Below are positions 3,539 to 7,444 of a stretch of DNA of 33,299 bases, in pieces (the stretch's first letter is position 1; every line of letters starts with the position of its first letter). The stretch lies in the NCBI GenBank assembly GCA_945903565.1, contig CAMDPA010000003.1, forward strand, positions 1 to 33,299, read 5' to 3'. Position numbers and translations under genes: made by a program. The DNA is from Devosia equisanguinis. Its GTDB lineage: Bacteria; Pseudomonadota; Alphaproteobacteria; Rhizobiales; Hyphomicrobiaceae. The notes beneath the pieces are model-generated. The model searched no databases, was not told the DNA's origin, and was given only the letters and a program-made list of their open reading frames with translations.

Positions 3539-6500
3539 TCACACTGCGCCGAAGCCGCCGCCGGTCGGCGTGACGATCGTGATGGCCTCGCCCGGCTCGA
3601 TCACGGTCTCGTCACAGCCTTCGAGCTTCTCGATGCGGCCGTCGGCGCGGCGTACGCTGTTGGCGCCGCACTGTCCGGGCTCGCCGCCCTCGAGACCATA
3701 CGGCCTGATGTTGCGCGAGCTTGTCAGCAGCGCACAATCCATTCGTTCGAGAAAGCGGATGCGGCGTTCGATGCCGTCGCCTGCGTTGTGCCGCCCACGT
3801 CCGCCCGAGCCGCGCCTGATCGCGAACTTCTCCAGCAGCACGGGATAGCGAAGCTCGAGGATTTCCGGGTCGGTCAGGCGTGTGTTGGTCATGTGCGCGT
3901 GAACCGCGGCGACGCCATCGAAGTCGGGACCTGCCGGCGTGCCCGAGCAGATCGTCTCATAATATTGGTAGCGCGCGTTACCGAACGTGACGTTGTTCAT
4001 GGTGCCCTGGCTCGGCCCCATCGCGCCCAACGCCGCCATCAGGCAGTTTACGACGATCTGGCTGGTCTCGGTGTTGCCGGCGACGACGGCGGCGGGGTAG
4101 CGCGGCGCCAGCATCGAGCCCTCGGGCACGATCACGCGCACCGGCTTCAAGCAGCCGGCATTGAGGGGGATCGGCGCATCACTGAGAACGCGCAGGATGT
4201 AGAGCACAGCGGCGCGCGTGACCGGCTCAGGCGCGTTGAAGTTGCCCGCTTGCATCGGGCTTGTGCCGGTGAAATCGATCGTGGCCGAGCGGTTGGCATG
4301 ATCGACCGTGATCGCGACTTTCACTTTGGCGCCCTGATCCGTCGTGATCTCGAAAGCGCCATCGCCGAGACGGCCGATCAGCGTGCGGACGCATTCCTCC
4401 GCGTTGTCCTGAACGTGGCCCATGTAGGCGCTGACGACATTGAGGCCGAAGTGCTCGATCATGCGCATCAGTTCGGCCACGCCCTTGTTGTTGGCGGCCA
4501 CCTGCGCCTTGAGATCGGCGATGTTCTTGTCGGGCGCGCGCGCGGGATAGCGGGCGCCTGTGAGCAGCGCGCGGGCTTCGGCTTCGAGAAAGCGGTCGGC
4601 TTCGACCAGCTTGACGTTGTCGATATAGACGCCTTCCTCCTCGATGGTCGTTGCGCGCGGCGTCATCGAGCCGGGCGTAAGTCCGCCGACGTCCTCGTGG
4701 TGGCCGCGGCTTGCAACGTAGAAGAGGATTTGGGGAGTTCCCTCGCCGCCTTTCTCCTCCCCCCTTGCGGGGGAGGTGGCGCGTAGCGCCGGAGGGGGGG
4801 CTCCTTCCGACGTCGGCGGTTCCCCCCCTCCGCCCCTTCGGGGCACCTCCCCCGCAAGGGGGGAGGAGAAGCCGCTGGCGGGGGAAGAGCACGGAGAGGT
4901 TGAAGACGAGAACACCGGCGTCACCACCGTGATATCCGGCAGGTGTGTGCCACCGTTGTAGGGTGCGTTGATCATGTAAACGTCGCCGGGACGGATGCGG
5001 CCGGCGTTCTCGCGCGCGATCGTTTCGACGGCCCGGTCCATCGAGCCGAGGTGCACGGGGATGTGCGGCGCGTTGGCGACGAGTTGCGCCTTGGCGTCGA
5101 AGATCGCGCAGGAGAAGTCGAGCCGCTCCTTGATGTTGACGGACTGCGAGGTGTTGCGCAGCGCTTCGCCCATCTGCTCGGCGATCGACATGAACAGGTT
5201 ATTGAACACTTCGAGAAGCACCGGATCGGCTTTGCCGCTCGCCAGCTCGCGACGGCGCGGCTCGGTGCGCCGCAAGATCAGGTCGTTGCCCGTGCTGAGT
5301 TCGAGCTGCCAGCCGGGCTCGACGACGACGGTCTGATGCGTCTCGATGACGAGCGCGGGGCCCCTGAGGCGCTGGCCCGGTTGCAAGGTGTCGCGCTTGT
5401 GGATGGGCGCATCGCGCCACGCGCCGGCGGAGAAAAAGCGCGCTGAGGCGGTGTCTGACCCTCCGGGTCTGACACCGAGGCGTGACCGCGCCGATGTTTC
5501 GCTAGCCGCGCCAACACTTGAGGTTTGCGTCCTGCTGTCGGACCCGGAGGGTCGGACACCTTCGGAAGCCTCGGCGTCGATCGCGGCGACGAACAGGCGT
5601 TTCTCGGGCGATATGAAACCGAACTGCTGGCGGTGCTTATCCTCGAACAGGCGCACCATTGCGGGCAGCGTCTCGGCGGCGGGCACGGCGATGGTCGTCT
5701 CGGTCGCTTCGTAGCGCAGCAACAGGCGCGCTTCGTGCTCAATTGAGGTGGAAGCTGCTCCCTGAGCGACGAGATCAGCCGCGTTCTCCACGGCCAGCTC
5801 CGCGACCAGCACACTTACTTTGCCGAGCGTTTCGTCCGACAAGGGCTGCTCGACCGAACGCTGCCGGCTTGTGCTCAGCTTCGCGAGCCCCATGCCGTAT
5901 GCGGACAGCAACCCCGACAGCGGATGGATCAGCACCGTCTCCATGCCGAGCGTGTCGGCGATCATGCAGGCGTGCTGACCGCCGGCCGAGCCGAAGCAGC
6001 CGAGCGCATATTCGGTCACGTCGTGGCCGCGCTGCACCGAGATCTTCTTGATCGCGTTCGCCATGTTCTCGACGGCGATGCGCAGGAAGCCGTCGGCGAC
6101 ATCTTCGGCGGTGCGGCCATCGCCGATTTGTCGCGCTATATCGGCGAAGCCATTGCGCACCGCGTCCTCGTCGAGGGATGCGTCGCCATTGGGGCCGAAG
6201 ATCGCGGGGAAGTTGGCGGCGCTCAGCTTGCCGACCATCACGTTGGCATCGGTGACGGTGAGCGGGCCGCCGCGCCGGTAGCACGCCGGACCCGGATTGG
6301 CGCCAGCCGATTGCGGGCCGACACGGAAGCGCTGGCCATCATAAGTGAGGATCGAGCCACCGCCGGCCGCAACGGTGTGAATGCGGAGCATCGGCACGCG
6401 CATGCGCACGCCCGCGACTTCGGTTTCGAACGAGCGCTCGTATTCGCCGGCGTAGTGCGACACGTCGGTGGAGGTGCCGCCCATGTCGAAGCCGATCACC

Positions 6501-7444
6501 TTGTCGAAGCCCGCGCGCCTTGCCGTCTCGACGACGCCAACGACGCCACCAGCGGGGCCGGAGAGAATTGAGTCGCGCCCACGGAACTGGCCGGCCGCCT
6601 TGAGGCCGCCCGAGGAGGCCATGAACATGACTTGTGGTGAGTGGGTGTCCGACCCTCCAGGTCCGACACCCTGGCGAGACGCCGCAAAGGGTGCGCTTGC
6701 CGAGGGAATTTTCGAGGTGGGCGCAGTGGTGTCAGACCCGGAGGGTCGGACACCTCCAAGAGCGCCCGATACACGTTCGACGTAACGCGCAAGAATCGGC
6801 GACAGGTACGCATCGGCCACTGTCGTGTCGCCGCGGCCGACGAACTTGATCAGGGGGCTGACTTCGTGGCTGGCGGAAACCTGATCGAAGCCGAGATCGC
6901 GCGCGAGTTTCGCCGCTGCCTGCTCGTGAGCCGGGAACGCGTAGGCGTGCATGAACACGATCGCGATGGAGCGGAAGCCGTCGGAGAAGGCCGCTTCGAG
7001 CGCCGTGCGGAGTTTGGCCAGATCGAGCGGCGTTTCGATGCTGCCATCCGCGCGAACGCGTTCGCGTGCCTCGATCACCTGAGAATACAGCATCTCCGGC
7101 TTAACGATGCGGCGGGCGAAGATATCGGGCCGCGCCTGATAGCCGATTTCGAGCTGGTCGCCGAGGCCTTCGGTCGTGACGAGAAGCGTGCGCTCGCCTT
7201 TGCGTTCAAGCAGAGCGTTGGTGGCGACCGTGGTGCCCATCTTCACGGCGGCGATGCGCTCTGCCGGGATCGGGTCATGCGAGCCGACGCCGAGGAAGCG
7301 GCGGATGCCTTCGAGCGCGGCATCGTCGTAGGCGCCGGGGTTCTCCGATAAAACCTTCTTGGTCTGGATGCTGCCGTCGGGCGCGCGCGCGACGATGTCG
7401 GTAAACGTGCCGCCGCGATCGATCCAGAAATGCCATTGGGTCAT
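3539..7444 (-). CDS. Hydantoinase/5-oxoprolinase family protein (HyuA-HyuB fusion), carrying three in-frame repeat insertions
   Basis: HyuA-like start [21 protein letters not shown] and [37 protein letters not shown]. HyuB-like part [63 protein letters not shown] and C-terminus TPTGGGFG. Confidence 0.95.
4752..4870. repeat. 119-bp palindromic element with 27-bp perfect terminal inverted repeats, inside the hyuAB-type CDS
   Basis: TTCTCCTCCCCCCTTGCGGGGGAGGTG (4752-4778) is the exact reverse complement of CACCTCCCCCGCAAGGGGGGAGGAGAA (4844-4870). Read in frame as [39 protein letters not shown]. Confidence 0.92.
5450..5560. repeat. 111-bp element copy A: two inverted 27-bp palindromes flanking 57 bp, in frame within the hyuAB-type CDS
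   Basis: Arms GGTGTCTGACCCTCCGGGTCTGACACC (5450-5476) and GCTGTCGGACCCGGAGGGTCGGACACC (5534-5560). Encodes [37 protein letters not shown] (37 aa). Confidence 0.9.
6644..6754. repeat. 111-bp element copy B, same architecture as copy A
   Basis: Arms GGTGTCCGACCCTCCAGGTCCGACACC (6644-6670) and GGTGTCAGACCCGGAGGGTCGGACACC (6728-6754). Encodes [37 protein letters not shown] (37 aa). About 61% identity to copy A between the arms by ungapped hand alignment. Confidence 0.9.

Follow-up and report, generated by a model that had tools for sequence, protein, structure and literature searches.

The hyuAB-type gene of Devosia equisanguinis located at positions 3539–7444 (minus strand) of the window, meaning the whole 33,299-nucleotide stretch of DNA that was analyzed, carries two 111-bp elements, each made of two 27-bp palindromic hairpins set head to head with 57 bp between them. 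We consider it probable that these elements belong to a lineage-specific family of REP dimers that spreads non-autonomously as a pair, is moved by a factor acting in trans and loses most of its insertions to selection. The host gene, an oxoprolinase/hydantoinase fusion, was recognized from its open reading frame, its Pfam domains (Hydant_A_N, Hydantoinase_A and Hydantoinase_B) and its orthologs; open reading frame analysis showed the frame to be uninterrupted over 1301 codons.

The two copies, both read on the minus strand, were delimited from the sequence and by an arm-pattern search. The copy at 5450–5560 (codons 629–665) consists of an arm at 5450–5476, which encodes GVRPGGSDT on the minus strand and matches GGTGTCYGACCCTCCGGGTCYGACACC without mismatch, a spacer at 5477–5533, and an inverted arm at 5534–5560 with one mismatch (GVRPSGSDS). 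In the copy at 6644–6754 (codons 231–267), the arm at 6644–6670 has one mismatch (GVGPGGSDT), the spacer spans 6671–6727 and the inverted arm at 6728–6754 has none (GVRPSGSDT). The arms form a 12-bp stem with a 3-nt loop and are near-perfect palindromes, the exception lying mainly at pair 7/21. The preliminary description was exact in these coordinates and in its layout of two 27-bp palindromes around 57 bp, and we reproduced the peptides it gave and its observation that both copies begin on a codon boundary (231 and 629) in one phase. It had put the identity of the centers at approximately 61% by hand; an ungapped alignment yielded 34 identical positions out of 57 (z = 5.7, 2000 shuffles), the top raw score among the family's spacers outside one tandem array (L153). 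Judging from this similarity, the two copies most likely derive from a common source, and such shared ancestry would account for their equal length and phase. Special conservation of the arms inside hyuAB was considered and is not claimed, since the arms in the relative G002 had diverged, by eye, about as much as the flanking codons. AlphaFold, run on the hyuAB protein with a 22-sequence alignment, placed residues 232–266 and 631–664 in disordered loops (pLDDT <50) between better-predicted elements; the protein is thereby predicted to bear both inserts as disordered loops rich in Gly, Pro and Ser.

A search for further copies, as the preliminary description had advised, uncovered a dispersed palindromic family. 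The arm pattern (consensus GGTGTCAGACCC-TCY-GGGTCTGACACC) had 158 matches across the genome (5.27 Mb) when up to three mismatches were allowed, as against 0 for the same pattern reversed, which served as the control. In a census of 74 stretches around listed palindromes (353 kb, 151 palindromes), 56 of 59 close pairs were head to head and none was tail to tail. Pair lengths ranged from 72 to 215 bp, mostly 98–120 bp, and multiples of three were not favored; across the family the spacers were largely unalignable, even at shared sites, apart from a faint common motif beside the arms. The layout of 27-57-27 in 111 bp thus holds for the two hyuAB copies and fails as a definition of the family, and a mobile unit fixed at 111 bp is ruled out by these lengths. 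Spacers that have become so hard to align point to old copies in decay more than to an active element. At L153 (2553–2902), one pair is present in three tandem copies, with a period of 122 bp and similar spacers. The arms themselves hardly vary: six compensatory T-A to G-C changes were counted at pair 3/25 (the GGGGTC subfamily) and two at pair 7/21. Covariation as a sign of a selected hairpin was dropped with so few compensatory changes, and nothing was concluded from it because the arms hardly vary. A sister subfamily, GGGGTCAGACCC-TGC-GGGTCTGACCCC, forms the same type of pair at L149 (3697–3815), at L168 (5141–5219) and in uvrC of G002 (L221).

The family was common in only three of the sampled relatives, two of the genus and one of the bacterial family; at up to two mismatches, palindromes numbered 59 in G002, 27 in G003 and 25 in G078. 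It was sparse in G001 and G015 (six each) and nearly absent elsewhere in the bacterial family as sampled, and the arm palindrome was found in none of 384 other sampled alphaproteobacteria at up to one mismatch.

The positions of the copies are strongly biased. Genes were called with a home-made codon model whose training set consisted of trusted genes. By these calls, 9 of the 56 complete pairs are intragenic and 47 extragenic, whereas random placement would put approximately 76% within genes. This tabulation, another check proposed beforehand, placed 38 of the extragenic pairs between co-directional genes, six between convergent and one between divergent genes, and two at an edge. The 38 copies between co-directional genes begin a median of 4 nt past the upstream stop and end a median of 20 nt ahead of the next start; 33 of them, or 34 when small overlaps are counted, have the upstream stop at most 15 nt away, as compared with approximately 20 expected and a maximum of 27 in 2000 trials when copies were placed uniformly at random within their own gaps. 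The family therefore shows both features of the REP class, being a short multicopy palindrome (14–40 nt; here 27 bp) that is mainly extragenic and near gene ends.

Of the nine intragenic pairs, L161 lies close to a predicted start and L142 (glycyl-tRNA synthetase alpha) close to the C-terminus; the other seven are internal. There are at least seven internal in-frame copies, twice in hyuAB and once each in uvrC, dnaE, valS, mazG and an amine oxidase gene, all in open frames with Pfam matches. Insertion in frame was thus confirmed for these copies; a single phase was not, as evidenced by the use of two arm frames, one of the GVRPSGSDT type and one of the VSDPPGLTP type, with a TGA in the third. 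The arms are stop-free in two of three frames on each strand, which would make survival in coding DNA easier, and from their sequences the in-frame copies look like survivors of insertion. The idea in the preliminary description that the unit had been selected for coding compatibility was not supported, given the scarcity of intragenic pairs relative to random placement, the lengths that are not multiples of three and the two arm frames.

Comparison with orthologs, also called for at the outset, revealed vacant sites in dnaE, in the amine oxidase gene, at the intergenic loci L119 and L139, and at codon 231 of hyuAB. The dnaE site is empty in G003, G001 and G078, and the gene is 33 codons longer here than in G003 and G001; the amine oxidase site is empty in G002, the gene here being 25 codons longer; L119 and L139 are both clean empty in G002. 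No target-site duplication, the mark of a MITE of a DDE transposase, was evident by eye at the empty sites of dnaE, L119, L139 and L189, although the flanks there differ by approximately 10–25%. Within hyuAB, the segment of residues 231–267 is absent from distant orthologs such as L042, L057 and L058, and in G002 codon 231 is occupied by a single palindrome. The argument for a clean insertion at residues 629–665 is weak, because distant orthologs have their own variable linker there; G002 and G003 hold 72-bp pairs at codon 629. In mazG, the linkers of relatives at the insert site are of comparable length, and both there and at hyuAB codon 629 the sequences suggest that replacement may have taken place rather than clean insertion. 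A pair in valS of G003 stands at the same position as the one here and shares the first 10 spacer bases, with spacers of 25 vs. 55 nt, from which it follows that some copies are older than the species split. At shared sites, then, the arms persist while the spacers change.

These findings bear on two alternatives. An ancestral duplication within hyuAB, with no mobility, would explain why the two copies agree in length, phase and orientation and why their spacers form the best-matching pair outside one tandem array. The preliminary description had reserved this explanation for the case that distant taxa carry the same segments and other copies are lacking; instead, the rest of the genome holds about 150 further examples of the same arms, and the codon-231 segment is missing in distant orthologs. 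We therefore regard a duplication as improbable, and a copying event within the gene as possible only if it belonged to the dispersal of the family. The second alternative is an annotation or assembly artifact, in which a pseudogene or chimera would merely appear to be in frame. The genome is fragmented and many of its contigs end at palindromes, but the 1301 codons are open with their domains intact, and in independent genomes an open frame likewise contains related palindromes at both of these codon positions, so that an artifact is hardly credible.

A third in-frame palindromic pair, of a different family, was recognized in hyuAB at 4752–4870 (minus strand) from sequence, ortholog comparison and folding. 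Its arms, CTCCTCCCCCCTTGCGGGGGAGG at 4754–4776 and the inverted copy at 4846–4868, belong to the CTCCTCCCCC..GGGGGAGG family. The peptide it encodes, SSPLAGEV...RGEEKGG, is missing in the orthologs of G001, G002, G013 and G065, and hyuAB of G003 holds a related pair. Elsewhere in the window, an intergenic inverted repeat at 30727–30878 (CCGTCATCCCGGACGAGCG...GACCCAGC / GCTGGGTCC...CCGGGATGACGG) resembles another dispersed intergenic repeat, and further inverted repeats were noted at 572–633 (GTGATACCGTCGAG..CTCGACGGTATCAC) and 641–673 (GCCACCCCCG..CGGGGGTGGC).

Sites used by the family also host unrelated palindromes. In G005, G013 and G073, which are of other genera, the hyuAB loops are occupied by different palindromic pairs, and the uvrC loop before FPDRPDLVLIDGG contains differing inserts, several of them palindromic, among the relatives read (L124, L218–L225 and L300). 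In hyuAB of G013 (L201), a AAAATGGGGACGGTTCCATTTT..AAAATGGAACCGTCCCCATTTT pair was observed in the same loop at the codon-629 site. Junctions were compared at 11 intercistronic loci and classified by eye; as raw counts, the 20 comparisons gave seven with a recognizably different palindromic pair in a sister species, two clean empty sites, and short, unrelated or partly related sequence in the rest. The unrelated pairs were at L119 in G003 and G001, at L148 in G001, G002 and G003, at L169 in G003 and at L190 in G001, and six of the seven fold better than shuffles, the L148 pair of G001 only weakly. It may be, and we put this forward tentatively, that palindromic-pair families with no relation to one another can stand in for each other at the same stop-adjacent operon junctions and in the same protein loops, such as those of uvrC and hyuAB. 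If true, either the families share an insertion machinery that reads stop-codon or loop-coding contexts, or selection favors a hairpin at these positions whatever its sequence.

Another explanation is that the pairs are RNA hairpins maintained site by site, being kept at particular operon junctions because a hairpin right behind the stop would influence how ribosomes are released, how the mRNA decays or how well the downstream gene is translated, with any family able to serve and intragenic copies arising as by-products. Such a role would agree with the strong stop-adjacent placement, with the folding of unrelated pairs at the same junctions in sister species, and with the retention of arms while spacers change; in addition, a stop-adjacent REP position is reported to affect translation in E. 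coli, with ribosomes stalling at REPs that lie no more than 15 nt from a stop (PMC12306157). However, the L119 and L139 junctions are empty in G002, which indicates that a hairpin is dispensable there, the role does not apply to intragenic copies, and tolerance of insertion at these positions would alone yield the same pattern. We judge this explanation to be rather unlikely.

Under the preferred reading of a REP-dimer family moved in trans, we infer that both palindromes of a pair move together, as a non-autonomous unit in the form of a single-strand hairpin, carried by a protein acting in trans. A REP transposase would be the obvious candidate, though a search for Y1_Tnp/REP transposase (PF01797) found none in this genome, which is approximately 94% complete, and the PF01797 loci of G001, G003, G054 and G065 (L192–L197) have no family palindrome within approximately 1.5 kb; a RAYT was rejected as the resident mobilizer on these grounds. 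Selection would purge most insertions, and those surviving would be of two kinds, namely copies in short intercistronic gaps, a few nucleotides past the stop and with about 20 nt left to the next start, a distance that would leave the ribosome site of the next gene free of the hairpin, and copies in frame within exposed protein loops. In hyuAB, a single source would have given rise to both copies. Once inserted, spacers would diverge and vary in length, and a pair is probably able to shrink to a single palindrome, as may have happened at codon 231 in G002. One lineage thus shows small palindromic repeats entering the essential proteins UvrC, DnaE and ValRS without breaking the frame, with occupied and empty orthologous sites side by side. 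Because unrelated families recur at the same junctions and loops, an old question, whether the position of REPs is set by the mover, by tolerance or by function, can now be approached by counting across sister species.

The family can be set beside several known systems. REPINs, which are moved by RAYTs, consist of two inverted REPs flanking a spacer and are able to form a single long hairpin; doublets can also give rise to lone palindromes (Bertels and Rainey, 2011; PMC3116915). A classical REPIN whose RAYT was missed in the fragmented genome or recently lost would account for inverted doublets of about 100 bp that are mainly extragenic, as REPINs are (PMC3116915), and the inverted doublet is indeed the repeated unit here. 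Yet no RAYT gene with the family palindrome on its flanks was seen, either in the genome itself or at L192–L197, and REPIN membership is therefore not claimed; we view this assignment as possible but doubtful. The REP dimers, or BIMEs, of the GTAG and CGTC super-families (Di Nocera et al., 2013; PMC3733652) are likewise 20–40 bp palindromes of high copy number, mostly head to head and mostly just 3′ of genes, with some in frame, including in repair and tRNA-synthetase genes. The same source records REP dimers within genes, a case of two in a single gene (uvrA), a bias to repair and tRNA-related genes, and CGTC families that also lack a known transposase (PMC3733652). The Devosia family differs in having a 12-bp stem and no tag, the 28 published families having been compared by description rather than by consensus; base counts of arms and flanks showed neither the GTAG nor the CGTC tag, which in those super-families stands unpaired at one end. 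A literature text search for the arm sequence returned unrelated papers only.

The RIME of Rhizobium, also in the Rhizobiales, is an intergenic repeat of about 100 bp with two large palindromes, and it is not known to have in-frame intragenic copies; its likeness to the Devosia family is one of description. The resemblance to Rickettsia palindromic elements that the preliminary description had pointed out is borne out in manner: these too are palindromic units that lie in frame in many unrelated proteins and are tolerated as extra peptide, and the at least seven in-frame copies here, a minority of all copies in a dispersed, MITE-like family, are comparable. Unlike them, the Devosia family occupies a different host and is mostly extragenic. 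Elements of this kind have been described before; what looks new is this particular family, together with the finding of unrelated repeat families at its sites. Because no RAYT association was found and the GTAG/CGTC tags are lacking, the best reading is to file the Devosia family with the REP dimers, as a new family set apart from the published ones by the description of its tag and stem.
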